DNA of 64,000 bases from an uncultured bacterium (GTDB lineage: Bacteria > Cyanobacteriota > Vampirovibrionia > Gastranaerophilales > Gastranaerophilaceae): NCBI GenBank assembly GCA_949297715.1, contig CASFTJ010000001.1, positions 1-64,000 of the forward strand, read 5' to 3'. The notes beneath the pieces are model-generated. The model was given only the letters and a program-made list of their open reading frames with translations, made no database searches and was not told the DNA's origin. Both the position numbers and the translations under genes were made by a program. Positions 11,252 through 59,850 of the stretch are shown piece after piece (position 1 is the stretch's first letter; each line of letters opens with the position of its first letter).

Positions 11252-12029
11252 CTACCAAGGATAATCCTTTTTCATTTCCCAGCCGTCGTTTATTATCTTT
11301 GCCGCGCAATATGTTCCTGTACCACTTAAGCTACAGCTACTGTTTATTTCCGCTTGAGTTTTGTCATATCCATATGGTCTTACAATATTTTTGTCAAAAA
11401 ATACTTGAAATACAAATACATCTTTACCTAAAATATTTGGGGGCTTTATTCCGTTTAAGTCCACATAAACACTTTGACTGGATGAATATTTTGCTGTTTC
11501 AGAAATTTTATTACCGTCATCATCATATTCATATTCCCACCACATCATATTTATATAATATGCTGTTCCATCCATTGTTGTAAAATATATTCGACCTACA
11601 TAATACGATGTAACAATAGCCAAATTATATACGGACTTATTTATCTTTTTAAAAGGATAATTTATTCCATAAGGATATACACCACTTTTTGAAACCGTCG
11701 GGTTATTAAAATATGGAAGCCAGTATTGTTCAAAAAATTTTTTGGTTGCATCCGCATTCACCGTATCAGACGTCGAAAAATAAGCCCCACCGTTATCTTC
11801 TTGAGCTTGCAACACCATTTGACTTAACACTGTATAAGCTTTTTTTAATTGTGATATTGTTGCCTGCTTTTTATATTTACCGACAACAGTCGGCAAAGTC
11901 ATGGCAATAACAACACCCAATATCCCTAAGGTTATTAAAACTTCCGCTAATGTAAATCCAGCCTTTTTCCCTCTTAAGGAGCTATTCTCGGGTGCCCCCC
12001 CCCCCCTGTAATTCAATCATATCAAGCAT
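11252..12029 (-). CDS. Pseudopilin-like protein 1, out of frame because of a poly-G run (phase OFF)
   Basis: The pilin body carries the prepilin signature AGFTLAEVLITLGILGVV, then a long N-terminal helix and a C-terminus ending DGWEMKKDYPW. A good ribosome site (AAGGAG, 6-nt spacing) precedes ATG 12029. From that ATG the frame runs through a 12-G tract into TAG after GGC-ACC-CGA-GAA. With 11 G the ATG would be in frame and give a 258-residue prepilin with the leader MLDMIELQGGGAPENSS. The present in-frame start would be a TTG at 12016 with no ribosome site. The gene has its own strong promoter. Prepilin peptidase would cut before FTLAE. The switch is inferred from the tract; an assembly error in the run is the alternative. 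Confidence 0.8.
11995..12006 (-). repeat. Poly-G tract (12 G on the coding strand) in pseudopilin 1
   Basis: Twelve consecutive C on the plus strand lie between the start codon and the pilin helix. Runs this long are exceptional in such AT-rich DNA and are the classic substrate for slipped-strand mispairing. Eleven or fourteen G would put the upstream ATG in frame. Confidence 0.9.
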
Positions 12030-12064
12030 TTCCAGCTCCTTACCTTTTTCTATGCTACTCTTTT

Positions 12065-12093
12065 ATTATATCAATCCTTTTTAATTTTGACAA
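12065..12093 (-). promoter_or_regulatory. Sigma-70-type promoter of pseudopilin 1
   Basis: On the minus strand TTGTCA, a 17-nt spacer and TATAAT give a near-ideal promoter about 36 nt before ATG 12029. The G-tract lies downstream in the coding region, so any switching acts on translation rather than on promoter spacing. Confidence 0.8.
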
Positions 12094-12138
12094 GCCTTTA
12101 GATTTAATACACCTTTCAATGCGCCAATCAATCCTTTC

Positions 12139-12155
12139 GGTGCGTCAAACGACGC
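12139..12155 (+). repeat. Inverted-repeat copy upstream of pseudopilin 1
   Basis: GGTGCGTCAAACGACGC is the opposite-orientation partner of the copy at 11226-11242 and lies just past the 3' end of pseudopilin 2. Confidence 0.4.
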
Positions 12156-12172
12156 TCACTCCTTACTACTTA

Positions 12173-12913
12173 CTACCAAGCAGGATAATCCTTTTTCATT
12201 TCCCAACCGTCCTGCATAATTAGAGCTGCACAAGCATCACCGGCTTGACGCATTACAACTCTCGTATTTTTGTTACAAGATCTATCTATTGCTGTACCCA
12301 AAAGATCTTCTCTTGAATAGAGATTAAATGGTCTATAACAAGCGGAATAGCCTCCTGGATATAACCCTGAACGTAAAGTTGGCATAACATATTCACAATT
12401 TTTATAAGTACCAATAGTCCTTGAGTTTATCAAATAAAAATTAAATATATCATGTCCTGAGCGATTAAATCCCGATGGCCCATCAGCATCAAAGAAAAAA
12501 ACTACTACCCCATCAAGAGTATTAACTCCTAAAATTCTTCCATCTCCTAATATTACACCATAATCAATTGTAATATTTGTTGTTTGATCAATTGCTTTTG
12601 GCTGACGTTTTCCGTACCAACAATCATTGTCATCTTTACAAACCATTGATATATTTAAAAACGGATTAAAATATTCCTCCATAAAATCCTTTGCCGATAA
12701 CGAGGTGTCAAAATCTGTTATATAAACTTCATTTATGGCCTGATAAGTGTTTGCTGCTTGCATCAATGTTGTATACATTTTTTCTAAAGCAACTGTTATT
12801 TCTCGTTTCTGGTGCTGTTGAATTAAAGCCGGCAAAGTCATTGCTATTACTACACCCAAAAGCCCTAACGTTATTAAAACCTCTGCTAAAGTAAAACCCT
12901 TCTCTTTCATCAT
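12173..12913 (-). CDS. Pseudopilin-like protein 2 (no poly-G tract)
   Basis: This 246-residue protein has a short charged leader (MMKEKG) and the prepilin signature GFTLAEVLITLGLLGVV, so cleavage would be after Gly6. A long helix, several Cys residues in the globular part and the C-terminus DGWEMKKDYPAW follow. It would be exported and assembled as a minor pilin or pseudopilin, although no pilus machinery genes are in this window. It is divergent from an XRE regulator gene 68 nt away, and a palindrome lies between them, suggesting direct control by that regulator. Confidence 0.85.
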   Translation of the reverse strand: MMKEKGFTLAEVLITLGLLGVVIAMTLPALIQQHQKREITVALEKMYTTLMQAANTYQAINEVYITDFDTSLSAKDFMEEYFNPFLNISMVCKDDNDCWYGKRQPKAIDQTTNITIDYGVILGDGRILGVNTLDGVVVFFFDADGPSGFNRSGHDIFNFYLINSRTIGTYKNCEYVMPTLRSGLYPGGYSACYRPFNLYSREDLLGTAIDRSCNKNTRVVMRQAGDACAALIMQDGWEMKKDYPAW

Positions 12914-12933
12914 ACTACCTACCTTTCTTATGG

Positions 12934-12947
12934 TTCTATGTATAGAA
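12934..12947. promoter_or_regulatory. Palindromic operator candidate between pseudopilin 2 and its XRE gene
   Basis: TTCTAT-GT-ATAGAA is a perfect 6-bp-arm palindrome in the 68-nt divergent gap. A half-site TTCTATATAT follows at 12973, touching the XRE start codon. The position fits autoregulation plus control of the pilin gene. Confidence 0.5.
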
Positions 12948-12981
12948 ATATATAAACGATTTTAGCATTAGTATTCTATAT

Positions 12982-13257
12982 ATGCAACATGCAAATTCTA
13001 AAAAATCAGAAATTATTTTTAAAACTCTCGCAAAAGTCATCCGCCAAGAACGAGAAAAACAAAATAAATCTCTAAGAGTTCTGGCTGATGAATACGATAT
13101 TCAAAAGTCACTTTTATCACGGCTTGAAAATGGAGTTAACGAGCCTAAACTTATTTCTATTTGGACAATCGCCGAAGCCTTAAACATTCCCGTATCTGAA
13201 TTAATCCATAAAGTAGAACAAGAACTGCCTAAAAATTTTACTTTAGTCGATAAATAA
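12982..13257 (+). CDS. XRE-family helix-turn-helix regulator divergent from pseudopilin 2
   Basis: This 91-residue protein is almost entirely a lambda-repressor-type domain: IRQEREKQNKSLRVLADEY, then the recognition region IQKSLLSRLENGVNEPKL, then IWTIAEALNIPVSELI. There is no sensor domain. It lies head-to-head with a pseudopilin gene, the same arrangement as the XRE gene at 39390. It probably binds the palindrome at 12934. The 3' end converges on the next gene with a 2-nt gap. Confidence 0.9.
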   Translation: MQHANSKKSEIIFKTLAKVIRQEREKQNKSLRVLADEYDIQKSLLSRLENGVNEPKLISIWTIAEALNIPVSELIHKVEQELPKNFTLVDK

Positions 13258-13259
13258 TG

Positions 13260-14066
13260 CTACTCAAAACTAAATGGATTTTTAGTTTTTGGTTTAGCAA
13301 ACGGATTAAACATATTTTGCGCTGTCTGATTATTATTATCAGATTTGTTCATGTCTTTGTCCTGCTTTATATAATCGTGTTCCGCTTTTGCTATTTCTTC
13401 AAGATTGCCGCTTTCCAGCAACTTTATAAATTCATCCATTTTTTTATCTATTTCTTCATTTTCGGCATCACTCAATTTTTCGGAAGTTTTTGAATCCTTT
13501 GAATCGCTGCCGTTTTCTATGGAATTTATTATATCCTCATTCAATTTGTCCATATCTATGCCGTCTAAATCACCGCCATTTGCTACAAATTGATTTAATT
13601 TATTCTCTATCGTTATGCTTTTTGCGGCTTTTGAATGTACATTTTTAATCTGTTCAGTTATTTGTTTTAATTGACTTACAATCGAATCTATATCTGCATC
13701 TGCTCCTGAGGCGCATTTTTTGCTTATTAGAGCATTTGCTTCTTCTGTTAAAGATCTTTTTGCAGTTCTGAATTTATCCGACAAACTACTAAACTTTGGA
13801 ATTTTTGAATTTTCAAGCTTTCTACAATTTAGACTAAAGTCTTGGTCTTTTACTACTTTTACATATTCATCATATGATTTATCAAATTGTTCGATATTTT
13901 TATTTCCCTTTCCGGAGTTGGCGGCTTCTCCTGTGTCATTTGCCCTTGATACATTATTTGACATATCCACTGTCCATACAGAATTACACGTTTTACCCTG
14001 AGGGTTTTGTTCTGTAATATATGGCACATATCCATTATTTGATTTTATATTACCTATTTGTAACAA
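13260..14066 (-). CDS. Asn/Ser/Lys-rich coiled-coil protein of unknown function
   Basis: This 268-residue protein starts at TTG 14066, with AAAGGAA at suitable spacing. It has no signal peptide or membrane span. The first 70 residues are Asn/Ser-rich and low in complexity. Residues about 85-230 are predicted helical with heptad-like Lys/Glu/Leu spacing (DADIDSIVSQLKQITEQIK, EIDKKMDEFIKLLESGNLEE). I do not recognise the family. It carries the shared ACTTTATATA promoter-like element 30 nt upstream, linking it to other unknown genes in the window. Confidence 0.65.
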   Translation of the reverse strand: MLQIGNIKSNNGYVPYITEQNPQGKTCNSVWTVDMSNNVSRANDTGEAANSGKGNKNIEQFDKSYDEYVKVVKDQDFSLNCRKLENSKIPKFSSLSDKFRTAKRSLTEEANALISKKCASGADADIDSIVSQLKQITEQIKNVHSKAAKSITIENKLNQFVANGGDLDGIDMDKLNEDIINSIENGSDSKDSKTSEKLSDAENEEIDKKMDEFIKLLESGNLEEIAKAEHDYIKQDKDMNKSDNNNQTAQNMFNPFAKPKTKNPFSFE

Positions 14067-14095
14067 AATATGTTCCTTTAAATCTTTTAATTATA

Positions 14096-14124
14096 TATAT
14101 AAAGTATATTTATTATATACTTGC
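14096..14124 (-). promoter_or_regulatory. Shared promoter-like element, copy B
   Basis: On the minus strand GCAA, a 15-nt spacer and ACTTTATATA end 30 nt before the TTG start at 14066. It matches the elements at 1602, 18956 and 40433. Confidence 0.5.
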
Positions 14125-14250
14125 TTTTTTATTTGTTTTTTTAAAGTTTTGTAAACAATTTCACAAACAAACAACAGTATTAAGTTTATGTAAAGGTGCC
14201 TTTTAGTTGTGGTAAACTAATATTGTGGATAAATTAAGAAGGAGGTCATA

Positions 14251-15375
14251 ATGATACCTATTTTAGATTCAAAACGCCAGTATGCTACTATTGGCAGCGA
14301 AGTTGAAAAAGCTGTATGTGATGTTTTACGCTCAGGTTCATATATTTTAGGCGCTAACTGCAAAGCTTTTGAACAAGAAATGGCTGATTTTATCGGCTGT
14401 AAATATACTGTAGGGCTTAACTCTGGAACTGATGCTCTTCATTTAGCTCTTAGAGCTCTTGATATCGGCGCAGGTGATGAAGTTATTACGGTTGCATTTA
14501 CTTTCGTTGCAACAACTGAGGCTATCGGAATCGTTGGTGCTAAACCTGTTTTTGTTGATATTGATCCTGATACTTTCAATATTGATGCATCTAAAATTGA
14601 AGCAGCGATTACTCCAAGAACTAAAGCTATTATTCCGGTTCACCTTTACGGTCAGCCTTGCGATATGGATATCATTATGGATGTCGCTAAACGCCACAAT
14701 TTACACGTTATCGAGGACTGCTGCCAAGCTATCGGCGCTTTATACAAAGGTAAAATGGTCGGTACTTTCGGCGATTTCGGTTGCTTAAGCTTCTATCCGA
14801 CTAAAAACTTAGGCGGTATGGGCGATGGCGGTTTGATTATGACCAACGATGAAAAACTTCGGGACAGAGTTGTTGCTCTTAGAAACCACGGCGGTGCTAT
14901 CCGTTATCACCACGATGAAATCGGTATTAACAGCAGATTGGACGAAATTCAGGCTGCTATTTTGAGAGTTAAGCTCCCTCACGTTAACAACTGGAATAAG
15001 CTCAGACGTGAACACGCTTATTACTACAACGAACTCTTTAAAGATTGCAAAGATATCCAAACTCCTGTTGAATTAAAAGATACGTACTGCGTTTATCATC
15101 AATATACAGTTAAAATCCCGAATCGTGACACAGTTCATAAATTGCTTCAGGAAAACGGAATCGGCGCTATGCTTTATTACCCGATACCTTTGCACCTGCA
15201 AAAAGTTCACGAATATTTAGGTGTCGGCAAAGGTTCACTTCCTTACACCGAAAAAGATACCGAATTAGTTATCTCGCTTCCGATGTTCCCTGAACTTACT
15301 AAAGAAGAACAGCAGACAGTTGCTAAAACTCTTATTGAATGTATTGAAAAATCAAAATCTGCTGTCGGTGTATAA
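14251..15375 (+). CDS. DegT/DnrJ/EryC1/StrS-family sugar aminotransferase
   Basis: This 374-residue PLP enzyme is full length for the family. Visible motifs are LNSGTDALHLALRALDIGAGDEVI, shown in part as NSGTDALHLAL, the HLYGQPCDMD region, EDCCQAIGA (the cofactor-stacking and Asp region), and FYPTKNLGGMGDGG with the Schiff-base Lys at residue 185. It would aminate a nucleotide-linked keto-sugar for a surface glycan. No other sugar genes adjoin it, so the exact sugar is open. AAGGAGG precedes the ATG, and a strong terminator follows, so it looks monocistronic. It uses C-ending codons more than its neighbours, which hints at high expression. Confidence 0.9.
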   Translation: MIPILDSKRQYATIGSEVEKAVCDVLRSGSYILGANCKAFEQEMADFIGCKYTVGLNSGTDALHLALRALDIGAGDEVITVAFTFVATTEAIGIVGAKPVFVDIDPDTFNIDASKIEAAITPRTKAIIPVHLYGQPCDMDIIMDVAKRHNLHVIEDCCQAIGALYKGKMVGTFGDFGCLSFYPTKNLGGMGDGGLIMTNDEKLRDRVVALRNHGGAIRYHHDEIGINSRLDEIQAAILRVKLPHVNNWNKLRREHAYYYNELFKDCKDIQTPVELKDTYCVYHQYTVKIPNRDTVHKLLQENGIGAMLYYPIPLHLQKVHEYLGVGKGSLPYTEKDTELVISLPMFPELTKEEQQTVAKTLIECIEKSKSAVGV

Positions 15376-15388
15376 TTTATTATATATA

Positions 15389-15426
15389 AAAAGACGCCCG
15401 CATAATATAAAATGCGGGCGTCTTTT
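15389..15426 (+). terminator. Strong terminator of the aminotransferase gene
   Basis: AAAAGACGCCCGCAT and its perfect complement ATGCGGGCGTCTTTT pair around an 8-nt loop (15 bp). The symmetry would also stop the convergent transcript. Confidence 0.9.
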
Positions 15427-15468
15427 AAACTTTATTCTTTATCAATTACCTCAAAATTATTATTCTAA

Positions 15469-16602
15469 TCATTTACCTGTTTTATTTTTATTAGATGACA
15501 TTTTATCTAAAACAACCCCGCCCAATCCTATTAGTACAAGCGCTGCCGCTACCATGCCTAAAATCTTTATCATCGGGGTATTCTTAACTTCTTTAGATTT
15601 ATGAATTGCCCAATCTTTTTTGAAAAATAAATTATCTGCATTTTTATAAAATATTTTATCAATCAATTCATCGGCCTGCTCTTTAAAATTCTCTTTTATT
15701 ACCGTTTTTAAATCTCCAACCGCTTTTTCATAAGCCTGTTTCGGATTCAACCCGCCGGCTTGAGCCTCCCCAAAACACCCTAAAGGCGCATCTGTACCAA
15801 ATAATATTCTATCTGTCGCATTTCTCTTTTGAAGCTCCTTTATAAGTTTTACAATACTTGGCTTGTTTGTATTGCTTATTCCGTCTTTGCCCCAATCTAC
15901 CCAGGATATATCTACATAAAGCCGTGAATCTTGTTCATCTATTGATTTCAAAAGTTCATCTATCGCATTTTGGTGAGATTTTGCATCACCTGCTCCCATA
16001 TGTCCCATGATTACAGGAACATTCGGAAATTTTCTGGCAAGATTGTGTATTGCTTCAGGTGATGATATTTTATCTACCAGTTTGCCTTCAGGTTTTATTT
16101 GAACATCACAGTGAAATAAACAGGGTAGCTGATATCTGTCTGCTAAAAACATATATGACCAGTAAATTTCACTGTCAGCCTGCGCCAGAAAACTCCTCGG
16201 ATGAAATTTTAATCCTACAAATTTTCCGGGATTGTCTTGTATTAAATTGTTTATTTTTACGGCATTTCCTGCGGTTTTTGTCGGCTGGCATGCGGCTAAT
16301 GCATAATATTTGGAATCCTTTTTACAAATTGATAATAGCTCCTCATTTCCGCTAACTTCATCTTTGCCTTCCCAATAAAGTGCATCTAAATTTGAAACTA
16401 TTGCTTTTTCAACTTCATCTTGCTGCATCTGCCCCTGTATATTAACGTTTAAAGGCGTCTTTGTAAATGTATCTATAGCTCCGATATCAAAATGAAGCAT
16501 ATCATTTCGGTTACCGTTTCTAGGCCAATTTCCTATATGCATGTGTGAATCTATTATAGAACCGGTAAATGATATTTTTTTCCCGAAACTATCTACTTTC
16601 AT
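15469..16602 (-). CDS. TIM-barrel amidohydrolase with a C-terminal membrane anchor
   Basis: This 377-residue protein has the amidohydrolase order of metal ligands: IDSHMHIG near the N-terminus, LKFHPR, LFHCDV, VIMGHMGAGD and FGTDAPLG. It resembles the amidohydrolase-2 group (ACMSD-like decarboxylases and lactonases). After the barrel, a hydrophobic span (MIKILGMVAAALVLIGLG) with a Lys-rich tail suggests a tail-anchored membrane protein, which is unusual for this fold. The N-terminus contains KKISFTGS, a short motif that recurs in other proteins here. It overlaps the upstream gene by 14 nt, so the two are one operon. Confidence 0.8.
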   Translation of the reverse strand: MKVDSFGKKISFTGSIIDSHMHIGNWPRNGNRNDMLHFDIGAIDTFTKTPLNVNIQGQMQQDEVEKAIVSNLDALYWEGKDEVSGNEELLSICKKDSKYYALAACQPTKTAGNAVKINNLIQDNPGKFVGLKFHPRSFLAQADSEIYWSYMFLADRYQLPCLFHCDVQIKPEGKLVDKISSPEAIHNLARKFPNVPVIMGHMGAGDAKSHQNAIDELLKSIDEQDSRLYVDISWVDWGKDGISNTNKPSIVKLIKELQKRNATDRILFGTDAPLGCFGEAQAGGLNPKQAYEKAVGDLKTVIKENFKEQADELIDKIFYKNADNLFFKKDWAIHKSKEVKNTPMIKILGMVAAALVLIGLGGVVLDKMSSNKNKTGK

Positions 16603-18475
16603 TATTTACCAAATCTCCTATATAATTATCATCATTAGATCTTCGATTTACAATTTTGTAACCGAGCCTTGATGGCGGAGTTAAGGCATTTGCAGCAAGT
16701 TTACATTCATATTCCGCCTGACCTTCTCCTCGACGCATTGCAATATCTGCAAGCTTATCAAACAATGAGGCTATTTCTTTGCGCTCGTTTAGTTTGTCTA
16801 CAAAATCTTCGTATGTTTTATCTTCAAACACTTTACACTTGTTATTTAAATAAAAATTATACAACCCGTTCGCTCCGGCATAATCACCTTTTGTATATTT
16901 TATGTCAGCAAGAGTTTTATATGCCTCTAAATATGTTTCATTTTTTGGATCAAAACCTACCATATCTATGTATCTGAGAACTTTTGATGCTTCTTTTTCA
17001 GCATTGTCATAATCATTATCTTTTGCATAGCGCTGTGCTCCATCCAACATGATTCCGATCATACGTTTTAAATCAACTCCGTCACCGCGAACTCTTTCGT
17101 AAAACATTTGATTGTCTATATCACGCCTGATTGCCGCAAACATTGAATAAGTACTTCCACTCATTGATTTTACACTCGGACGTCCGCTGTTTTCACAATC
17201 TCCCAAAGGATAAATTATCTCATTTGCTTCATTACGTCTGAAAAAGTTCTCTAGTTTATAGTCAACAAAATCCCCTTTATCATATATTTTTTCCCGCCAA
17301 AGCTGATCAGGACTATAAACTTCCCATACAGGATAAAGTTTATCGGCAAATTGAAGCATATCTCTGTGCTCGCCTAATGCTTCCTTAAAGCATTCTATTT
17401 CTTCTCTGTCTGCGACAGCCTCCTGAACACTCAAGCCTACAAATTTTGAAATATCCCTTAAATCATCTGTATACGGAAATTCCGCTATCGGATAATCGTT
17501 AGTTTCTCTATCGACAAAACTGTATCCTACAATTTCTTTATTTTCATTTCTTATCGGTGTAAGATTGTAAACCCCTCTGGCTCCGTCTCTTACGGCTGTA
17601 TCGTATGCCGAAAACATATGATCCGTAAATCCGTCACTCTTTTTAAGATTTACAACATCTGCATTTGAAAGTGTTAATAAATTAAAATCATACCAGCCGT
17701 TGTTCTTAATTTCATTCAACATGCCGTTAATCTTGCCGTCACGATCATAACCTGTCGCAAGATAGTTTATAAGTTCCGGAGTACAACCTCTATCTTCTGC
17801 CATCCATCTTAAACTTGCTTCATGTGGATGTGATGCCGGTACATATATTTTATGACAATTCAACTTGTTTATCATATTTATGATTCCGGCGGTATGCTCT
17901 ATTCCGTTATCATCTGGATCCATATATCTTAAATATTTTTCATATTTTTCAGGATTTTTTGCGATTACATCCAAAAATTCCAACAACTCTTTTTTATGAC
18001 TCAATACATTATACGGCTTTAAATCAATATCTTTCCCCATAATTGCTTTATATTGAGCCTCTAAATTTTGAAGCGGAACGTTTACATACAACGGTACGGC
18101 CACAAAATCATCTTCTCCGACTATTTCACTGTAATATAACTTTTTCAACTCATTCTCAACATTTTTTAAAGGCTTGTCAAATGATGCATATATCGGATCT
18201 TGAGTTTCGAAAGTTCTAACCGTAATATTCTTCCCGCTATCTATCGCTTTGGCAAAATGATTCATATCCTTTGCATGATTTCCGCCGTCTACTAAATATA
18301 CGGTTCTGCCCATAAAAGACACCGCCTTTGGCATTGTTTCAGCTTTCTGTGGCGATTTTATAAATACATCTCTATCTATATTACTGTTATTTGATGCAAT
18401 CGGATTGTTTGCATATTTTAATATATTATTTACACCTGACTTCTGCCATTGAAATGATATCGGATTTATTCTCAT
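16589..18475 (-). CDS. Large protein of unknown function with TPR-like C-terminus
   Basis: This 628-residue protein lacks a signal peptide. It begins INPISFQWQ and has a second VSFMGRTVYLVDGGNHAKD block near residue 53. The central part is mixed alpha/beta with no motif I can assign. From about residue 490 the chain is helical pairs of TPR character (AKDNDYDNAEKEASKVLRY, YKTLADIKYTKGDYAGANGL). It is the first gene of an operon with the membrane-anchored amidohydrolase, so a shared pathway or complex is likely. I do not recognise the family. Confidence 0.75.
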   Translation of the reverse strand: MRINPISFQWQKSGVNNILKYANNPIASNNSNIDRDVFIKSPQKAETMPKAVSFMGRTVYLVDGGNHAKDMNHFAKAIDSGKNITVRTFETQDPIYASFDKPLKNVENELKKLYYSEIVGEDDFVAVPLYVNVPLQNLEAQYKAIMGKDIDLKPYNVLSHKKELLEFLDVIAKNPEKYEKYLRYMDPDDNGIEHTAGIINMINKLNCHKIYVPASHPHEASLRWMAEDRGCTPELINYLATGYDRDGKINGMLNEIKNNGWYDFNLLTLSNADVVNLKKSDGFTDHMFSAYDTAVRDGARGVYNLTPIRNENKEIVGYSFVDRETNDYPIAEFPYTDDLRDISKFVGLSVQEAVADREEIECFKEALGEHRDMLQFADKLYPVWEVYSPDQLWREKIYDKGDFVDYKLENFFRRNEANEIIYPLGDCENSGRPSVKSMSGSTYSMFAAIRRDIDNQMFYERVRGDGVDLKRMIGIMLDGAQRYAKDNDYDNAEKEASKVLRYIDMVGFDPKNETYLEAYKTLADIKYTKGDYAGANGLYNFYLNNKCKVFEDKTYEDFVDKLNERKEIASLFDKLADIAMRRGEGQAEYECKLAANALTPPSRLGYKIVNRRSNDDNYIGDLVNNESR

Positions 18476-18584
18476 AAATTTCTAACTTTCGTAATTACTT
18501 TAATACCCACTTATACCTAAACCTGAAAATAAAATATTTGCTAGTTAAAAGTCTATTTTTTATAAAAAATTTACAAAACATAAC

Positions 18585-38570: not shown

Positions 38571-39281
38571 TTAATACGAAATTCTTCTTGGATAATTTTT
38601 AGGAACTTTCCAACCGTTACGCTGGATTATTGCTGTACAGTAACTTCCTGCTTGTCCACACCCATACGTTGAATCATTATACAAATCATCATCATTACCA
38701 TCCCAATTATATAGAAACGGTTCTAAACCTTTTTTATAATGATATCTCCACCCTCCACTGCTATTCATAGGATAAAAAGAAAATGAAAACGAACAAACAC
38801 CCAAAGTTGATTCACCTTTAGCTTGTCTATCCAAACATTTTTCAGGATTTCTCGGATAAAAAGATAAATCTCTGTTTTCATGTCTGGCAAATGAGAAAGC
38901 ACTACCATCAGCCAGATAGTACATATAAAATTCATCTCCTGCAAATTCTCCTGAAGAATATTTTAATTTTTCAATTTTATATACTTTTAAATACGGAGCA
39001 AGATATATGTCAAATGAGTTTTTATTTTCCTCCTGCTGATTAACTTTATTTCCATCTTCATCTGTAATATCATGATTCCAATACTGCCAGCTTTCATAAG
39101 GCCCATTCTTTACGGAAGACTGCAATAATGCCTGATTAAATATTGAATAAAATTTCTTTAACCTTGTTTCTGTCGCTGTTATGTCATATTTATGTATCAT
39201 TGCAGGAAGAGTCATTGCAACAACAACACCTATAATTCCTAACGTTATCAATACTTCCGCCATTGTAAATGCTTTTTTCAT
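38571..39281 (-). CDS. Pseudopilin-like protein 3 (no poly-G tract), XRE-linked
   Basis: From ATG 39281 (GAGGA upstream) it is 236 residues. The leader is MKKA, followed by FTMAEVLITLGIIGVVVAM. Cleavage would be before Phe, and the conserved Glu at +5 is present. The globular part has several Cys residues, and the C-terminus NGWKVPKNYPRR is a variant of the DGWxxKKDYPW tail of the other pseudopilins. It is divergent from an XRE gene with two strong palindromes between them, so repression by that protein is likely. No pilus machinery genes adjoin it. Confidence 0.85.
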   Translation of the reverse strand: MKKAFTMAEVLITLGIIGVVVAMTLPAMIHKYDITATETRLKKFYSIFNQALLQSSVKNGPYESWQYWNHDITDEDGNKVNQQEENKNSFDIYLAPYLKVYKIEKLKYSSGEFAGDEFYMYYLADGSAFSFARHENRDLSFYPRNPEKCLDRQAKGESTLGVCSFSFSFYPMNSSGGWRYHYKKGLEPFLYNWDGNDDDLYNDSTYGCGQAGSYCTAIIQRNGWKVPKNYPRRISY

Positions 39282-50807: not shown

Positions 50808-50826
50808 AATAAAAAAGGAGAAACCA

Positions 50827-51607
50827 ATGAAAACTCAGACTATAGTAGAAACCCGCAGGGGGGGGGGGGGCAAACACCCGCTACGAGAGGCTTTCAGCAA
50901 ATAAAGCCTTTACACTCGCAGAAGTTCTCATAACTATCGGGATACTCGGTGTAGTTATCGCAATGACACTGCCATCTATAATAGGCAAATATCAGAAAAA
51001 AGTCACAGTCGAAAGATTAAAAAAAGCTTATACGGTAATATCACAAGCCGTAGCAATGTCCATTAAGGATCACGAAGAAGTAGAATATTGGGATTTTGAA
51101 CTTAGCGCACAGGAGTTTATGGATACTTATTTAAGTCCGCATTTCCAAAAAATTGCATCTGAAGAAGTTTCTTCTAATACAAACAAATATTCAAAGACTT
51201 ATGTATTGCCGGATGGCACTACCTTTTACGGCTGGATGGCCAAGAATCCTGCTCCTGAAAATCATGATGTAACAACTTTTTATCAAATAAATATAGATAT
51301 AAACGGAAAGCAAAATCCTAATCAATTAGGAAGGGATATTTTTGTTTTTTATTTATTCCCAATGAAAAATAGGGTATTTAATGGAGGACTAGGTAATATT
51401 GCTAAAAATGTGCCTAGGGCCGGATTATACCCAGATGGTTATGGTTATAATAGGGAAACTCTAAAAAATGATAGCTGGCGGGGATGTAATATTGATCCAA
51501 ATGGACAAGCTGCAAGTGGCACCTCTTTATCCTATTCCGCTCGTGCTTTTTGTACTGCCTTGATTATGTATGACGGGTGGAAAATTGCCGATGATTATAA
51601 CTGGTAG
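50827..51607 (+). CDS. Pseudopilin-like protein 4, out of frame because of a poly-G run (phase OFF)
   Basis: ATG 50827 has AAGGAG at ideal spacing, but after ten codons the frame enters a run of 13 G and ends at TAA 50902-50904. The pilin frame begins beyond the tract: AFTLAEVLITIGILGVV, a long helix, and the C-terminus DGWKIADDYNW. It has no ATG, GTG or TTG between the previous stop and the pilin helix, so the product cannot be made complete as assembled. With 12 G the ORF is a 259-residue prepilin whose leader includes RRGGGANTRYERL. The first in-frame ATG now is 50963, inside the helix. Confidence 0.85.
50858..50870 (+). repeat. Poly-G tract (13 G) in pseudopilin 4
   Basis: Thirteen G lie between the start codon and the pilin helix. 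Twelve G would restore the frame. Confidence 0.92.
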
Positions 51608-53028: not shown

Positions 53029-53060
53029 TAATCTGACTTAGCTGAAAGCATAATGTAAAA

Positions 53061-53110
53061 AAAGTTCCCGTTTTGTATCATTTGAAAAGATAAGGACGGG
53101 AGCTTTTTTT
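53061..53110 (+). terminator. Terminator whose stem contains the next gene's ribosome site
   Basis: AAGTTCCCGT (53062-53071) pairs with ACGGGAGCTT (53096-53105) and is followed by T8 running to the ATG at 53111. GGGAG in the 3' arm is the only ribosome-site candidate for the following gene, so termination and translation compete. Confidence 0.7.
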
Positions 53111-54124
53111 ATGAAAAAAATATTGTTTTTTGATGTTGCAGAATATGAGGTTGAATTTTTAAAAGAGGCCTGTGAAGGAAAATTTGAATATCAACTGATT
53201 AAGGAATCTTTAAACGGTTTATTTGAACTTTCAAAAGAGCAGGAAGATGCTCAAATAATTTCTTGTTTTACAACTTCAAGGGTTCCGAATGACATTCTTG
53301 AAAAGTTTAAAAATCTTGAACTGATTGCACTGAGATCTGTAGGGTTTAATCATATTGATATAGATTACTGCAAGAAAAATAAGATTTTTGTTGAAAATAC
53401 TCCAAACTACGGCAATATGACAGTTGCAGAATTTGCGCTCGGCTTGCTTTTGGATGTTGCAAGGAAGGTTACCTATTCTGCCAATAATCTAAAAAACTCC
53501 ATAGTTGATGCAAAATGCACAATCGGGACAGAAATTTTTGGAAAAACAATCGGTATTGTAGGGCTTGGTGCAATCGGCAGTGAAATGGCAAGATTAGCAC
53601 ACGGTATCGGATTGAAAATTTTAGGATACGATTTAAAAGAAAATGAAGAATTAAAAGAAAAATACGACGTTCAATATACGGATTTTGAAACTTTAATTAG
53701 AAATTCTGATTTTATATCCTTGCATTCACCGCTTACGAAAGAAAATTACCATCTGTTTAATAAAGAAACTTTTGAACTTATGAAGCCGACGGCATTTATA
53801 ATTAACACTGCAAGAGGCGAATTAATCGACACACAGGCTTTATATAACGCTTTGATTGAAAACAGAATCGCAGGAGCAGGTCTGGATGTTTTGGAAAGCG
53901 AAGACACTTTAGTGGATATTGAATATCTTGTTGATATCGGCAGAATGTCCCCGCAAGCATTACAAAAAACAGTATTGAACAATCGGCTCATGAAACTGGA
54001 TAACGTAATCATAACCCCGCATATTGCTTACGACACTAATGAAGCAATAAATAGAATCTTAAACACCGCAATATCAAATATAAATGCCTTTGTAGAGGGC
54101 AAAATTCAAAATAATGTATATTAA
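53111..54124 (+). CDS. D-2-hydroxyacid dehydrogenase (D-lactate dehydrogenase-like)
   Basis: It encodes 337 residues with the family fold: the NAD loop GIVGLGAIGSEMARLA, the catalytic Arg in NTARGELIDT, a Glu in DVLESED and the His in ITPHIAYDTNEA. The N-terminal RSVGFNHIDIDYCKK matches D-lactate dehydrogenase-type members. The true substrate is uncertain. The start codon directly follows the T-run of a terminator hairpin. Confidence 0.9.
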   Translation: MKKILFFDVAEYEVEFLKEACEGKFEYQLIKESLNGLFELSKEQEDAQIISCFTTSRVPNDILEKFKNLELIALRSVGFNHIDIDYCKKNKIFVENTPNYGNMTVAEFALGLLLDVARKVTYSANNLKNSIVDAKCTIGTEIFGKTIGIVGLGAIGSEMARLAHGIGLKILGYDLKENEELKEKYDVQYTDFETLIRNSDFISLHSPLTKENYHLFNKETFELMKPTAFIINTARGELIDTQALYNALIENRIAGAGLDVLESEDTLVDIEYLVDIGRMSPQALQKTVLNNRLMKLDNVIITPHIAYDTNEAINRILNTAISNINAFVEGKIQNNVY

Positions 54125-54147
54125 TGTAAAAATTTTTAAAGAATTAA

Positions 54148-54185
54148 TCCTAACCTGCCGTAAATCGGGTATAGGTAGGTTAGGA
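54148..54185 (+). promoter_or_regulatory. Hairpin covering the ribosome site of the TPR gene
   Basis: TCCTAACCTGCC (54148-54159) and GGTAGGTTAGGA (54174-54185) pair at 11 of 12 positions around a 14-nt loop. The 3' arm holds the TTAGGA ribosome-site candidate and the A of the ATG, so the fold would hide the start. A DNA operator is the alternative. Confidence 0.55.
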
Positions 54186-55480
54186 TGTCAAAAACGGAAA
54201 AGAAAAATAAAGAGCTTGAAATAACCTTCTTAAACGGAGTTTGGATGTGGTTTAAGCTGCAAAAAGAAATTCAATCAGACAAAGCCACTTCTCAAACCTA
54301 TGTTCATCTTGCTGAAATTTATTTAAATTATTATATGTATAGATTATCATTTTATCATGCTCTAAAGGCAATAAAGTTGGATAAATCGAATCCTGATGCC
54401 TACTATTATGCAGGTTTTGGCAAATATTATTTGAAAAATAATGTTCCGGTCGCAAAAAAATATTTTAGAAAAGCTGTTGAACTCGGAATGAAACGAGTAT
54501 ATATCCCTCTTGAAATGCTTGCTATTATTGCAATTCAGGAAGAAGATTTTGAGAAGAGTTTTGATTATAAAAAACAAGTTTTAAGTATAAATGAAGAAAA
54601 TTCTGTTTTTTATTTCATGTGTACATATATCTATATCCAATCGTTTATGCTAAAAGAATCCCTTGAATATTTCTTTAAAGGGATAAAATATTCTATATTA
54701 GAACGTAAGCTTCCTTTAATAGGAATATTTTTTATTATATGTTTTTTCATTCAAAATTTTACAGCTAATTATTTTTATAAAAATTATTGCAGAGCGTATT
54801 ATCTTCTTTATAGCGGGGAATCAAAAGAAGAAGGAGAAAAATTGTTTTTAGAAATTGCTGAAAAGCACAAAAAGTATAAAGAATGCTGTTATAATAGCCT
54901 TTTAGACTATTATTACGAAAAAGATGATTATAAAAAATGTATTGATATAGCAAATAAGATTTTAATAAAAGATAAGTATTGGAAAGCTTATGAATATAAA
55001 AAGCTTTCATATATGACACTTGGTCAAGAAGATAAAGTTATTGAAGTTATAAAGATAATGCAAAATAACAATATTCAAACTGAAGATGAAGATTACAATA
55101 TTCAACTTGGCAAAATATATTTAGCAAAAGAAAATTTTTCAAAAGCCTTAAATTATTTTAACAAACAAATAATATCATCACCGAGTTCACACCCGTTTTT
55201 GTATAAAGGAATGTGCTTAGAGAGGCTTTCTGATTATGAAAATGCCATAAAAGCATATAATACTTCACTGGATTACGAAAAGAGCGACCTTGCATATTAT
55301 AGAATTGCAAACTTGTACTATCTGGAAAAAGACTATCAAAAAGCACTTGAATGTATAAATAACGGACTTTTATTGAACAAAGATTCTTATAATTACAATT
55401 TAAAAGGTGATATTCTAACCGCAATGCTGAGGATTAAAGAAGCAAACATTTGCTATAAAAAAGCGGAAAATCTAGGCTAA
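54185..55480 (+). CDS. TPR-repeat protein with a central membrane segment
   Basis: It encodes 431 residues made mostly of TPR helices: YVHLAEIYLNYYMYRLSFYH, AYYYAGFGKYYLKNNVPVAK, YRIANLYYLEKDYQKALEC and others. One hydrophobic stretch (IGIFFIICFFIQNF, about residue 180) may span or touch the membrane. Such proteins usually scaffold complexes. Its neighbours give no pathway. The start lies in a hairpin that may control translation. Confidence 0.8.
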   Translation: MSKTEKKNKELEITFLNGVWMWFKLQKEIQSDKATSQTYVHLAEIYLNYYMYRLSFYHALKAIKLDKSNPDAYYYAGFGKYYLKNNVPVAKKYFRKAVELGMKRVYIPLEMLAIIAIQEEDFEKSFDYKKQVLSINEENSVFYFMCTYIYIQSFMLKESLEYFFKGIKYSILERKLPLIGIFFIICFFIQNFTANYFYKNYCRAYYLLYSGESKEEGEKLFLEIAEKHKKYKECCYNSLLDYYYEKDDYKKCIDIANKILIKDKYWKAYEYKKLSYMTLGQEDKVIEVIKIMQNNNIQTEDEDYNIQLGKIYLAKENFSKALNYFNKQIISSPSSHPFLYKGMCLERLSDYENAIKAYNTSLDYEKSDLAYYRIANLYYLEKDYQKALECINNGLLLNKDSYNYNLKGDILTAMLRIKEANICYKKAENLG

Positions 55481-55483
55481 AAT

Positions 55484-56422
55484 TTATCTGCAAGTTCTGT
55501 TGCATTTGGGCTCACTTAGCGGTTTTCCAAAAATCAGCCTTAACCCGCCAAAGTTCTTCGACATAGTGTTTTTAAGCCCGCCCGTTATGTCTGCTAAATT
55601 TTGCGTAATTATTTCTGCATTTGATATTGAAGAAGAAATTTGCGCTCCTTGCGAACTTATATCGCCTGTTATTGAATCAATATTTTGCGTAATTCCTTCT
55701 ATATTTTTTCCGGTCACAACGACACTTGAAGATGTTTTATCAACATTTGAAAATGTATTTTTTAACTGGCTTTCATTTATGGAATTGTTCAATTTTAACG
55801 CAAAAATCCTGAAACTATTTGACATTTGAGCAAGATTGTTTGTCATAATTTTAATTGAAGGCCTGTTTTCATCCACAGTATCAGTTAATACATTTAAAAA
55901 TTCGGTTAAAGCGTCACTTGTAAGCTTCAAACTCTCCATAAGACTGTTTGCATTATTCGTCAAAGCATCCAATTCTCCTGTCAAAGCTTTGCTTGAAAAA
56001 TAATTTTCAATATCAACAGTCATTACACCATTTATAATATCTCCGCTTTTTAATGAAACTGAAGACGGTTTTTCAGGATATAGAAGATTTATAAAATCTG
56101 TTTCTTTTCTCTCGCGTTTTTCTCTTGTTAAAAGCGCCGTTGTATTATTGGGCAATTTTAAGTGCTTCGGGTAAAGCACAATTGTAACCAAAGTCGATTG
56201 AAAATTGTCATTCGGCGCTATTTTTTGAACTTTTCCGATTCTGTAACCTTTATAATAAACCGGAATTTTATTTCTTACAGGTCTTGCATCCTTAAATTCT
56301 ACAGTTATATAAGTGTAAGTCTTAACTCTATAAACACACATTAATATACAAAGAATAACGAAAATTAAAAGCGCAATTCGCGATGTTTTTTGATTAATTT
56401 GAGATGTTAAAAATTCTTTCAT
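55484..56422 (-). CDS. mlaD: MlaD/MCE-family lipid-transport protein
   Basis: This 312-residue protein has an N-terminal span (about 16-33) and an MCE domain (VEFKDARPVRNKIPVYYKGYRIG, in part NKIPVYYKGYRIGKV, then LVTIVLYP). A long helical region with many Asn/Ser and a C-terminal Cys-rich end (PKCNRTC) follows. MCE proteins carry lipids between membranes with MlaE/MlaF partners, which are not in the window. It starts 32 nt after the leuS terminator. Confidence 0.88.
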   Translation of the reverse strand: MKEFLTSQINQKTSRIALLIFVILCILMCVYRVKTYTYITVEFKDARPVRNKIPVYYKGYRIGKVQKIAPNDNFQSTLVTIVLYPKHLKLPNNTTALLTREKRERKETDFINLLYPEKPSSVSLKSGDIINGVMTVDIENYFSSKALTGELDALTNNANSLMESLKLTSDALTEFLNVLTDTVDENRPSIKIMTNNLAQMSNSFRIFALKLNNSINESQLKNTFSNVDKTSSSVVVTGKNIEGITQNIDSITGDISSQGAQISSSISNAEIITQNLADITGGLKNTMSKNFGGLRLIFGKPLSEPKCNRTCR

Positions 56423-56453
56423 ACAAATAATGTTATAATTTTAACAACCAAAT

Positions 56454-56490
56454 AAAATTGCCCCGTCAGCTATAAGACGGGACAATTTTT
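56454..56490 (-). terminator. Terminator of leuS
   Basis: AAAATTG-C-CCCGTC pairs with GACGGG-A-CAATTTT around an 8-nt loop, 19 nt beyond the leuS stop; T-rich sequence follows on the minus strand. Confidence 0.85.
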
Positions 56491-56508
56491 ATAAACTTTG
56501 CAAAACAA

Positions 56509-58998
56509 CTATTTTACAACGATATTTACCAATTTTTTAGGAACAACAATTGTTTTTACAACTGTTTTTCCTGCTGTTATTTCTTTAATCTTGGCACTAG
56601 AAAGCGCAAGCGTTTTTAATTCGTCTTCACTTGAAGATTCATCTGCTTCAATTTTGTCTTTCACTTTACCGTTAACCTGAACAACAAGTGTAATTGAGCT
56701 TAATTTAGCCAAATTCTCATCCCACTTCGGCCATTCCTGCTCGTGAATAGACCCTTGACAACCTAAATCAGCCCAGGCTTCTTCTGTCAGGTGAACCGCA
56801 ACAGGCGACATCAATTTAAGCAAAGTCAAAATCGCAAAACTCAACACTTCTTTATCTTCCTGATCAAGATTAGACTTCTTACCCTGCCAATCGTAAATAG
56901 TATTAACAAGTTCACGATATTTTGAAATTACCGTATTAAATTGGAAGTCATTTGAAATATCGTTAGAAATTCCCTTAATCGCCATATGAACACGACGAAC
57001 AAGTTCATCATTTTCTTTTTTCAAAGCTGTCTGAGGATTAAAGGCCGCTGTTGTAATATTTTCAGCATTTGTTGAAATTAATCTCCAAACTCTGTTCAAG
57101 AATTTGTAACACCCCTCAACTCCTGCATCTGACCAGTCAAAATCTCTTGCCGGAGGTGAATCCGATAAAATAAACAATCTTGCCGTATCAGCTCCGTAAT
57201 TTTCAAATATTTCATCCGGATCAACCGTATTTCCTTTAGATTTTGACATTTTAGAACCATCTTTCAAAACCATTCCTTGAGTCAAAAGGTTTTTAAACGG
57301 CTCGTCAAAATCCAACAAACCTAAATCCCTCAATGCTTTTGTGAAAAATCTTGAATAAAGCAGGTGAAGAATTGCATGCTCAATTCCACCGACATACTGA
57401 TCTACAGGAAGCCATTTGTTTACTTTGTCTTTAGCAAACGGCATTTTGTCATTTTTAGCATCAGAATATCTTAGATAATACCAGCTTGAGCAAACGAATG
57501 TATCCATCGTATCGGTTTCCCGTCTTGCTTTTCCGCCGCAGCAAGGGCAAGTTGTTTCGACAAAAGTTTTAGACGTTGTAATCGGAGATTTGCCGACTAC
57601 GCTAAAGTCAACATCCTTCGGCAATAAAACAGGAAGCTGATCTTCCGGAACTGGCTGAATTCCGCATTTTTCGCAATATACAACAGGAATCGGAGCGCCC
57701 CAGTATCTTTGACGTGACACAAGCCAGTCACGAAGTCTGTATTGTGTTTTAAATTCTCCAAAACCTTCTTTAACAGCTTTTTCCGTAATCGCTTTTTTAG
57801 CATCTTCATTTTTCATTCCGTTAAATTCGCCTGAATTAATCATTATACCAGGTTCGGTATAAGCTTCATCTTTACAATCCGAAGGATTTTCAGGATTTTC
57901 TATAACGACTTTCATCGGAAGATTATATTTTTTAGCAAAATCAAAGTCCCTTGTATCATGTGTCGGAACAGCCATTACAGCACCTGTTCCGTATTCGACA
58001 AGCGCATAATCTGCTGTCCATAGCGGGAATTTTTCGCCCGTAAACGGATTTATACAATGCGTTCCAAGAGGAACACCCGTTTTTGTTCTGTCTGTTGAAA
58101 GTCTTTCAATTTCAGTCATTTTGCGGGCATTTGCTCGATAATCTTCAACCGCTTTTTTGTTTTCCGCAGTTGTAAGTTTCTCAATATCTTTATACTCGGG
58201 TGCCACAACCAAATAAGTGATACCGTAAGCCGTATCGGGACGGGTTGTGTAAACCGGAATTTCTAACTCAGACCCGTCAGGCATATCGCAAACCTTAAAT
58301 CTTAAAATTGCACCTTCAGACTTACCAATCCAGTTTGCCTGCATAGTTTTTACGTTATCGCCCCAGCCTGTAAGTTTATCCAAATCTTCCAGAAGGACTT
58401 CGGCATAATCCGTAATTTTCAAAAACCATTGTGAAAGATATTTCTTTTCAACAACGTTGTCACATCTCCAGCATTTGCCGTCGATTACCTGTTCGTTTGC
58501 AAGAACCGTTCCGCATTCTTCACACCAGTTTACGGCAGCTTCTTTTTTATAAGCAAGTCCTTTTTTGTATAACTGCAAAAACAGCCACTGAGTCCATTTG
58601 TAATAATCAGGCTTGCAGGTCGTAACTTCTCTGTCCCAATCGTAAGAAAGCCCGAGCATTTTAAGCTGTTTTGTCATATATTTAATATTTTCATCAGTCC
58701 AAACTTCAGGATTTGCACCGTGTTTCATAGCCGCATTTTCTGCAGGAAGCCCGAAACTATCCCAACCCATCGGATGAAGCACGTTAAATCCGTTCATCTT
58801 TTTATAACGAGCAATTACATCTGTAATTGTATAGTTTCTTACATGCCCCATATGAAGCTTGCCTGACGGATAAGGAAACATCGACAAAGCATAATATTTA
58901 GGTTTGCTGTTGTCATCAGTTGTCTTAAAAGCTTTATTTTCTTCCCATATTTTCTGCCATTTTTTTTCTATTTCTTGCGGATAATACGATTCTTTCAT
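56509..58998 (-). CDS. leuS: Leucyl-tRNA synthetase
   Basis: From ATG 58998 (AGGGAGA upstream) it is 829 residues; a longer ORF start adds 19 atypical residues. The class I motifs are PYPSGKLHMGHVRNY (HIGH type) and GSKMSKSKGN. The editing domain has TRPDTAYGITYLV and AVPTHDTRDFDFA. Zinc-type Cys pairs are present at CEECGTV/CWRC and CPCCGG. Length is normal. It is divergent from a poly-G pseudopilin gene. Confidence 0.97.
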   Translation of the reverse strand: MKESYYPQEIEKKWQKIWEENKAFKTTDDNSKPKYYALSMFPYPSGKLHMGHVRNYTITDVIARYKKMNGFNVLHPMGWDSFGLPAENAAMKHGANPEVWTDENIKYMTKQLKMLGLSYDWDREVTTCKPDYYKWTQWLFLQLYKKGLAYKKEAAVNWCEECGTVLANEQVIDGKCWRCDNVVEKKYLSQWFLKITDYAEVLLEDLDKLTGWGDNVKTMQANWIGKSEGAILRFKVCDMPDGSELEIPVYTTRPDTAYGITYLVVAPEYKDIEKLTTAENKKAVEDYRANARKMTEIERLSTDRTKTGVPLGTHCINPFTGEKFPLWTADYALVEYGTGAVMAVPTHDTRDFDFAKKYNLPMKVVIENPENPSDCKDEAYTEPGIMINSGEFNGMKNEDAKKAITEKAVKEGFGEFKTQYRLRDWLVSRQRYWGAPIPVVYCEKCGIQPVPEDQLPVLLPKDVDFSVVGKSPITTSKTFVETTCPCCGGKARRETDTMDTFVCSSWYYLRYSDAKNDKMPFAKDKVNKWLPVDQYVGGIEHAILHLLYSRFFTKALRDLGLLDFDEPFKNLLTQGMVLKDGSKMSKSKGNTVDPDEIFENYGADTARLFILSDSPPARDFDWSDAGVEGCYKFLNRVWRLISTNAENITTAAFNPQTALKKENDELVRRVHMAIKGISNDISNDFQFNTVISKYRELVNTIYDWQGKKSNLDQEDKEVLSFAILTLLKLMSPVAVHLTEEAWADLGCQGSIHEQEWPKWDENLAKLSSITLVVQVNGKVKDKIEADESSSEDELKTLALSSAKIKEITAGKTVVKTIVVPKKLVNIVVK

Positions 58999-59057
58999 CT
59001 TTTTCTCCCTAACTCTTCGCACAAAAAGGGTAGCACAAAAACATTTCATTCGCAATC

Positions 59058-59086
59058 TTGCAAATTCTTAGAAAATAATTTATAAT
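59058..59086 (+). promoter_or_regulatory. Sigma-70-type promoter of pseudopilin 5
   Basis: TTGCAA, a 17-nt spacer and TATAAT, 19 nt before ATG 59106. It is a near-consensus promoter, so the gene should be transcribed whatever the length of the G-tract. Confidence 0.8.
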
Positions 59087-59105
59087 TATAAAAAAAGGAG
59101 GAACG

Positions 59106-59850
59106 ATGAAAACCTTGAAAACACTGCTCAGAATGAATGGGGGGGGGGGCTAACCATTGTAAACACTGGCTTTCAGCCTTTACGCTTGCCGAAACACTTA
59201 TTACTATTGGAATTATAGGCATTGTTGCCGCTATGACTTTACCAGCTATTATTGATCAAAGACAAAAAGTTGTGACCGTCAACAGACTTAAGAAATTTTA
59301 CACAACTATGGAACAAGCCATCTTATTAACAGAAAAAGACAATGGAGAACTTGAATATTGGATGCCTACTCCGGATTTATACAATAATAGCGAAGGTTTT
59401 GAAAAATGGTTTAATATGTATTTAGGCAAACATTTCCAAATTATTCAAAGGAAAAAACTTGATGCCAAATATTATCAAATAGGTTTAATTGATGGAAGCG
59501 GGTTTGTTGCTTATATAAATTCTTATGGAACAATATTCTTCTTTTTCTGTATTGATCTAAAATATTGCGGGAAAGAAAAATATGACGGCAAAAATTCTTT
59601 TCTATTTTCTATCGCCCCAGATGCACAAGCAAATAATAGAATTAGATTTGTAACATCAAATACCGGTTCACAGCATGTGTCACGTGAATACCTTCTTGAA
59701 CGTTGCAAATATGGAGATAGCGACACCCCAGGAACAAGCATAAAAGATAAAAGGCATACTTGCGCAAGACTTATTCAATATGATGGCTGGCAGATTAAAA
59801 AAGATTATCCTTGGGATCAAATTATTGTTACGCCCGGTGATGGCGATTAA
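59106..59850 (+). CDS. Pseudopilin-like protein 5, out of frame because of a poly-G run (phase OFF)
   Basis: ATG 59106 follows AAGGAGG closely, but its frame runs through 11 G into TAA at 59151-59153. The pilin frame reads SAFTLAETLITIGIIGIV, then a long helix, several Cys and the tail DGWQIKKDYPWDQ. With 10 G the two join into a 247-residue prepilin with the leader end RMNGGGANHCKHWLSA. In the present phase a product could start only at ATG 59137, formed by the edge of the G-run, with no ribosome site. The strong upstream promoter is intact. Confidence 0.83.
59139..59149 (+). repeat. Poly-G tract (11 G) in pseudopilin 5
   Basis: Eleven G between the start codon and the pilin helix. Ten G would restore the frame. 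Confidence 0.92.

Follow-up and report, generated by a model that had tools for sequence, protein, structure and literature searches.

Type IV pilin-like genes across a family of Gastranaerophilales have out-of-frame poly-G leaders that selection appears to maintain

The window analysed here, a stretch of 64,000 nucleotides (nt) from contig CASFTJ010000001.1 of an uncultured member of the Gastranaerophilaceae (assembly GCA_949297715.1), contains three pseudopilin genes, T1, T2 and T3, each with a long run of Gs that leaves the pilin out of frame with its apparent start. Such poly-G leaders, with the type IV pilin-like gene out of frame, occur across the family and are apparently maintained by selection. 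As to mechanism, the choice lies between programmed slipping during expression, which is favoured, and an OFF-biased switch in the DNA. From the sequence comparisons, we consider the chances about even that a programmed slip on the G-run yields the pilins.

The window has a G+C content of 34.4% and exactly three runs of seven or more Gs or Cs (G12, G13 and G11). As an earlier note on this DNA had claimed, they are its only long G-runs, lie at the same place in pilin genes and are one G off in the same way. At all three loci, the run is positioned after an ATG with a Shine-Dalgarno (SD) sequence and before the FTLAE motif of type IV pilin-like prepilins. The offset of the pilin frame is one base, in a common direction, the run being one G over the length that would join it to the ATG frame (the 0 frame). 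A CA or CT stands directly 3′ of each run, and the joined frame would therefore read Gly-Gly-Gly-Ala. This leader design, also described in the note, is correct for T1 to T3 and is not general, as the examined loci of genome G225 (genus g7) have Arg or other residues. Pfam family PF07963 scored above cut-off for T1 and T2, which also matched NCBIfam TIGR02532 (N-methylated pilins), and T3 was above cut-off for DUF6613 only. An RNA-family scan of the window returned one tRNA and no other known RNA family. The features of the three loci are as follows.

11252 to 12016, minus strand: T1 pseudopilin, open reading frame (ORF) in the pilin frame (PF07963); the only in-frame start is a TTG at 12016, without SD
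12036 to 12039, minus strand: T1 SD GGAG, within AAGGAGCT
12027 to 12029, minus strand: T1 SD-associated ATG, opening the 0-frame leader
11995 to 12006, minus strand: T1 G12 run, phase +1
11982 to 11984, minus strand: T1 0-frame stop TAG, 10 nt past the run and immediately 5′ of CTCC
11978 to 11981, minus strand: T1 CTCC (anti-SD), within AGCTCCTT, complementary to AAGGAGCT at the SD
50817 to 50820, plus strand: T2 SD GGAG
50827 to 50829, plus strand: T2 SD-associated ATG
50858 to 50870, plus strand: T2 G13 run, phase +1, with the 0-frame stop 31 nt past the run and no CTCC
50858 to 51607, plus strand: T2 pseudopilin frame, from run to stop (PF07963)
59097 to 59100, plus strand: T3 SD GGAG
59106 to 59108, plus strand: T3 SD-associated ATG
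59139 to 59149, plus strand: T3 G11 run, phase +1, with the 0-frame stop TAA 1 nt past the run and no CTCC
59137 to 59850, plus strand: T3 pseudopilin frame (DUF6613); the ATG at 59137 overlaps the run and is in the pilin frame, without a properly spaced SD

By chance, three loci would all be off in the same way with an expectation of 2/27, which is weak on the window alone; the pattern is strong because loci across the genome agree. A search of this genome and its relatives for G-runs ahead of FTLAE, with run length modulo 3 tabulated, had been suggested in the earlier note. The pattern of SD, a run of at least eight Gs and FTLAE was present in 76 of 383 genomes of the family, in 62 of the 289 of good quality and in 11 of 41 genera as tallied, as well as in one of 22 genomes from other families of the order. 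The reversed pattern (SD, a run of at least eight, FTLAE read backwards) had no matches in any genome listed, which speaks against a chance origin. A wider scan gave at least 111 listed matches, among which L114 (Bacteroidales), L187 (Limnothrix) and L198 (Rokuibacteriota) had no pilin at the match; the remaining listed matches were labelled Gastranaerophilales, Melainabacteria, Scatousia, Cyanobacteria SIG32, Fusobacterium CAG:439 or uncultured or unnamed bacterium.

Phase relative to the SD start was tabulated for 319 loci in 46 genomes, the non-redundant union of ten genomes, three further genomes and scan-set loci (among the matches listed): 24 loci were in frame, 131 at +1 and 164 at −1. 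Genomes were chosen for having many matches, and those counted were, for example, 6 of 7 in G003 and 38 of 39 in G362. Duplicates were merged, and no run within 45 bases of the start or 150 bases of the end of a stretch was counted. In the ten-genome set, 10 runs had no pilin motif within 35 codons and 2 of 221 had no SD start; with these removed, 219 SD-start loci remained (14 in frame, 95 at +1, 110 at −1); thirteen genomes gave 249 loci (15, 106 and 128, respectively). Ten loci each were taken from G164, G143 and G307, i.e., 30 of 74 matches. Among the matches listed, an SD start was identified for 110 of the 111 pilin-type runs, and 7 loci of the 111 yielded no usable row.

A single direction of offset characterises individual genomes or genera. 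G225 has G10 and phase −1 in 54 of 55 loci of the ten-genome set (−1 in 55 of 56 in the union), and its leaders of 19–40 bases cover all three residues modulo 3, yet share the same offset. Phase −1 was also found in 14/14 loci of G307, a genome of the window’s family, and 11/13 of G143 (both in the union), in 27/33 of G049 (mostly G10) and, with G8, in 14/18 of G020. The +1 offset was found in 30 of 38 loci of G362 (mostly G11, none of the 38 in frame), 18 of 23 of G147 (mostly G9) and 12 of 14 of G007 (mostly G12), which belongs to the same genus as the window genome. Depending on the genome, the modal run length is 8 to 12; it is 8 in G020 versus 11 in G362, two species of genus g8. Direction varies by genus, for example −1 in the genus of G225 and +1 in that of the window; the single shared direction read from T1 to T3 extends to most loci of a genome, and differs between genera. 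Phase and length are looser in G000, G010, G362 and G164. When leaders were clustered at a 25% edit-distance cut, an in-frame majority was seen in 8 of 101 clusters (P = 1.6e-9 versus one third).

The source genome itself (G000; 2.02 Mb, 34 contigs) has 27 G-runs of at least nine bases, 24 of which sit in prepilin leaders. Twenty-two of these were called by script and two were read by hand, namely C3:137388, where the pilin frame is open to FTMAE, and C14:238, which has an FSLGE motif; the two hand-read loci belong to the 24 and were left out of the 319. Sixteen of the 24 runs are at +1, six in frame and two at −1. In most loci, a near-identical cassette leads from the SD AAGGAGCT through a short leader and a run, mostly of G12, to AGCTCCTT, which matches the SD octamer exactly in reverse complement. 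A profile search for N_methyl gave 79 matches in this genome. All 20 of the run-less pilins fetched have an in-frame start 9–27 nt 5′ of the motif, with an SD in 19, so G000 holds two kinds of pilin gene side by side, of which only the run-bearing kind is out of frame. CTCC occurred in the 45 nt before the motif in none of these 20 run-less pilins. In another run-less control set, from two genomes, an in-frame SD start was present in 6/7. The window holds two such controls.

12173 to 12913, minus strand: run-less pilin adjoining T1, with a normal in-frame SD-ATG
38571 to 39281, minus strand: second run-less pilin, with an in-frame SD-ATG 12 nt 5′ of its FTMAE motif

Seven of the pilin-leader runs of G000 lie within ∼300 bases of contig ends (C7, C14, C15, C19, C20, C29 and C34), which suggests that the near-identical leader breaks the assembly there and that the assembly may have lost or merged some of the pilins with runs. 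Three runs lie outside pilin leaders (G000:C8:8856-8866, L037; G000:C2:219774-219785, L032; G000:C5:61837-61845, L034); one is in or ahead of a possible membrane protein and another is ∼240 bases upstream of a run-bearing pilin. In G004, of the same genus, there were 8 N_methyl matches versus the 79 of G000 and the run pattern was unmatched; the pilin repertoire seems to expand and collapse within one genus.

Comparison between genomes suggests that run length or phase is under selection. Reciprocal-best pilins of different genomes (at least 70% identity) had a common phase in 24 of 31 pairs, a conservation of offset across species as in programmed frameshifting, and a common run length in 21 of 31; at 90% identity or more, both agreed in 5/5. 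One G020/G362 pair retained its phase with G8 versus G11. Species pairs with the same phase and length span a dS (synonymous divergence) of 0.07 to 1.3, and a freely drifting homopolymer would not be expected to hold one length for so long. The pilin ORF is open for at least 177 codons from the run in 304 of the 319 loci. Among 163 non-independent pairs of at least 60% identity in which both members were out of frame, the median ratio of nonsynonymous to synonymous divergence (dN/dS; pairs with dS <2) was 0.17, and one G049 pair had 0.76. The low ratio in out-of-frame pairs argues that the pilin proteins are made often enough for selection to act. In two between-species pairs, G225 versus L124 and L132 (both labelled Fusobacterium CAG:439), the pilin bodies are 90–94% identical and the leaders unrelated, while run length and phase are equal, as if leaders had been swapped between pilins as modules by recombination.

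The sequence around the run has further regularities. In the SD-ATG frame, a leader of ∼6–13 codons is followed by the 8–13 Gs, read as glycines. At 295 out-of-frame loci, the median distance from the run to the 0-frame stop is 8 nt, and to the stop of the third, unused frame 17 nt. Taken by cluster, these medians become 8 and 18, and of 95 clusters 76 have the 0-frame stop closer and 18 have it farther away (p = 1.3e-7). A 0-frame stop soon after the run, as in programmed frameshifting, is found outside the two g8 genomes. A stop right at the shift site, as in prfB, was considered as a general rule and rejected; it applies only to most of the +1 loci of G147 and to three loci of G020. All out-of-frame loci of the ten-genome set were checked for other starts. 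In most of these genomes, the pilin frame usually has no ATG, GTG or TTG before the motif (G003 6/6, G006 3/4, G010 3/5, G020 17/17, G049 26/30, G147 18/21, G225 47/54, G362 37/38). This was true of only 3/17 loci in G000, chiefly owing to the cassette TTG without SD, and of 3/13 in G007.

Downstream of the run, 200 of 329 loci (219 + 110, overlapping sets) have a CTCC complementary to the SD, compared with ∼35 in shuffled sequences. Both GGAG and CTCC are present in 178 of 296 non-redundant loci, with the CTCC 9–16 nt past the run in 171 of the 178. The nucleotide immediately 3′ of GGAG is complementary to that immediately 5′ of CTCC in 75% versus 41% when partners are permuted, and in 56% versus 35% after collapsing. 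As the position of CTCC relative to the codons of the pilin frame varies (112, 47 and 19 of the 178), it is not kept for its amino acids alone. In predicted folds, CTCC is nearly always paired, its partner being the SD in G000, G007, G362 and mostly in G020, and more often the G-run in G225 and G049. In G022 (C6:25820 and C11:5954), a small inverted repeat, GTGCCTTAACAGGCAC, stands immediately 3′ of the run and is a possible RNA element replacing CTCC.

Programmed slipping could bring these features together as follows. The ribosome would start at the SD-ATG, read the leader and cross the run, and in most loci the unslipped frame would stop shortly afterwards; the joined prepilin would be made when the reading machine slips one base on the run. 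Ribosomal frameshifting on the repeated GGG codons is a tentative candidate for that machine, the ribosome slipping between overlapping GGG codons. It is favoured over RNA polymerase because each genome holds mostly one direction, whereas RNA polymerase slippage would tend to serve both offsets. Pairing of CTCC with the SD or with the G-run may produce a hairpin controlling either initiation or the slip. The leader peptide is removed in prepilin processing. The glycine leader would be removed along with it, so that a slip would leave the mature pilin unchanged, and the outcome may be low, tunable amounts of many minor pilins. The complete scheme, in which the richest genome would make ∼55 minor pilins via poly-G ribosomal frameshifting, with direction reversed between genera, CTCC acting as a per-gene switch on the SD or the run and the slip confined to the part that is cut off, is doubtful as a whole. 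Four-base decoding is known from mutant glycine tRNAs of the sufD type. The three Gly tRNAs of G000 (CCC, UCC and GCC) all have 7-base anticodon loops, which speaks against a four-base glycine tRNA in that genome.

Several observations weigh against programmed slipping, or against parts of it. The in-frame shares of 24/319 overall and 6/24 in G000 are not negligible, and 7 of the 31 reciprocal-best pairs differ in phase (four with opposite out-of-frame phases, three with one in-frame member). The strength of the phase test depends on how relatedness is handled, as looser collapsing weakens it: a 35% cut left an in-frame majority in 5 of 31 clusters (P = 0.028), and a 45% cut merged all leaders into a single cluster. 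G164 was at +1 in 10/10 fetched loci but in 10/13 once scan loci were included. The nearer 0-frame stop is absent from the g8 genomes G020 and G362. CTCC was found in only 1 of 23 G147 loci, and T2 and T3 are also without it; pairing next to GGAG is convincing at one position only. When SDs were swapped between genomes, 33% of the swapped SDs paired better (50% expected), so the advantage of the own SD is only moderate, and in G147 61% paired better. No enlarged-loop Gly tRNA was found among the 42 tRNA matches scanned by ARAGORN in G000. Finally, identical or near-identical leaders can differ by one or two Gs (G143 C3, G11/G10; G049 C5, G12/G10; G009, G11/G12), and the closest G010 locus to T3 has an identical leader with G12 and phase −1, versus G11 and +1 in T3.

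These last differences, together with the in-frame loci, indicate that DNA slippage also happens, and they are what would be expected of OFF-biased phase variation by replication slippage, a serious contender to which we give somewhat less than an even chance. Under this explanation, OFF would be the usual state of each locus, and a change of one G in the DNA would switch on a handful of pilins in a small number of cells, so that the surface repertoire is shuffled; run length would sit at a mutational attractor and leaders would have evolved to be OFF by one step. As in contingency loci, a homopolymer tract early in a surface-protein gene sets the reading frame, run length differs in 10 of the 31 reciprocal-best pairs, and such switching has been shown experimentally for pili of Bifidobacterium breve (PMC9187656, in the sections available). 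Phase variation predicts neither OFF phase in particular, however: in G225, runs of 9 or 12 would be equally OFF, yet 54/55 are of 10. The free variation of contingency loci, with varying lengths, both OFF phases and ON, was seen neither there nor in G307 (14/14 at −1). The modal lengths of 8 and 11 in one genus (G020 and G362) argue against a single attractor. Leaders of different length retain the phase, as do same-phase species pairs over dS 0.07 to 1.3, and neither the spread of modal lengths between genomes nor the early stop in the SD frame is explained. MutS1 was found in 7/7 genomes, which also counts against this explanation and, as regards MutS1, against missing mismatch repair as the cause. 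The MutS1 match of G225 (G225:C1:210936-213461), the genome with the most uniform runs, contains one TAG. The earlier note took a single run length per gene without variation to speak against its proposal; within a genome the runs do cluster at one length, yet this length leaves the pilin out of frame, which counts against ordinary phase variation more than against slippage.

The remaining explanations are less probable. Programmed transcriptional slippage, with RNA polymerase adding or dropping Gs so that a fixed fraction of the mRNA is in frame, is unlikely, and its probability forms part of that given above to a programmed slip. Homopolymers of 8–13, the maintained out-of-frame state and the existence of both +1 and −1 lineages are consistent with it. 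It should, however, serve both phases in a genome, and most genomes hold mainly one; moreover, bacterial elongation slippage is described mainly for A/T runs in the available parts of the literature (PMC3711429, PMC1088944). That every run was miscounted by one base in sequencing or assembly is highly improbable. Those sources that carry a title are draft assemblies, mostly metagenome-assembled genomes, 7 of the 27 G000 runs are less than 300 bases from a contig end and one G362 run contains a scaffold gap. Against this, +1 and −1 offsets and lengths of 8 to 13 occur across many independent assemblies, in-frame runs were also assembled, and a miscount would neither follow leader architecture nor create a nearer 0-frame stop. 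Decay into silent pilin genes, to which the lack of an in-frame SD start at most loci might point, has the least to recommend it given the open frames of 304/319 loci and the median dN/dS of 0.17. The earlier note had offered a majority-OFF population or built-in slippage; that something maintains the shared out-of-frame phase is borne out, the phase being family-wide and too regular for chance or decay.

In the mainly non-subscription literature, we found no report of such out-of-frame poly-G pilins and none joining Gastranaerophilales with phase variation; a Gastranaerophilales paper reports pilA, pilB, pilC, pilT and pilD in its accessible part (PMC5877343). A survey of frame transitions in 1106 genomes does not mention pilin in the available main text (PMC3711429). 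The literature thus agrees with the earlier note that no system of this form has been described, but the note did not name a close precedent, the G-tract pili of Bifidobacterium (PMC9187656, as far as available). Two sortase-dependent pilus loci of B. breve contain intragenic G-tracts. A 2016 review of recoding considered that the interrupted pili genes of B. breve may use frameshifting (PMC5009743), and according to the available sections of a 2022 paper their expression is attributed to replication slippage, for which ON/OFF switching was shown (PMC9187656). The likeness is close: a gut commensal, a tract of ∼11–12 Gs early in a pilus gene and a reference state that needs a frameshift to join two ORFs (PMC9187656, PMC5009743, same portions). 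In B. breve, however, lengths are mixed in one culture, with ∼37% G11 and 60% G12 at one locus (PMC9187656), whereas some Gastranaerophilales genomes have dozens of type IV pilin-like genes with one out-of-frame length and phase, a leader stop and often a CTCC complementary to the SD.

Other known systems resemble this one in part. Programmed frameshifting in dnaX and prfB involves a slip-prone run, a 0-frame stop soon after it, a conserved offset and SD-like and stem elements nearby. The leaders described here resemble them in run, stop and offset, and the CTCC near the SD may be a counterpart of the stem elements, but the known cases (PMC5009743, available sections) are single housekeeping or insertion-sequence genes, in contrast to a large, diversified surface-protein family with poly-G runs and genus-dependent direction. 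The same sections describe G7-run indel mutants of herpes simplex thymidine kinase, in which low-level frameshifting on a G-run likewise yields some in-frame product; these are drug-selected viral mutants and not an evolved gene family (PMC5009743). In the pil1 locus of Streptococcus gallolyticus, as far as the accessible text describes it, repeats in a leader ORF with an attenuator underlie phase variation of the leader peptide (PMC3894217). Like the G-run, they are a repeat within a short leader ORF that precedes pilus genes, and a change in repeat number shifts the leader end relative to an RNA hairpin; unlike it, the GCAGA repeats work via a transcription terminator, whereas here the run joins leader and pilin in one gene (PMC3894217, same text).

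Should the out-of-frame state prove programmed, many surface-protein genes of these common and mostly uncultured gut bacteria are probably truncated or miscalled by automated annotation. These pilins would also form an unusually large recoding gene family in bacteria, with built-in replicates in the form of dozens of paralogs, both directions and lengths of 8–13. If the loci instead undergo OFF-biased phase variation, the genome of a commensal would carry up to ∼55 switches for varying its surface.

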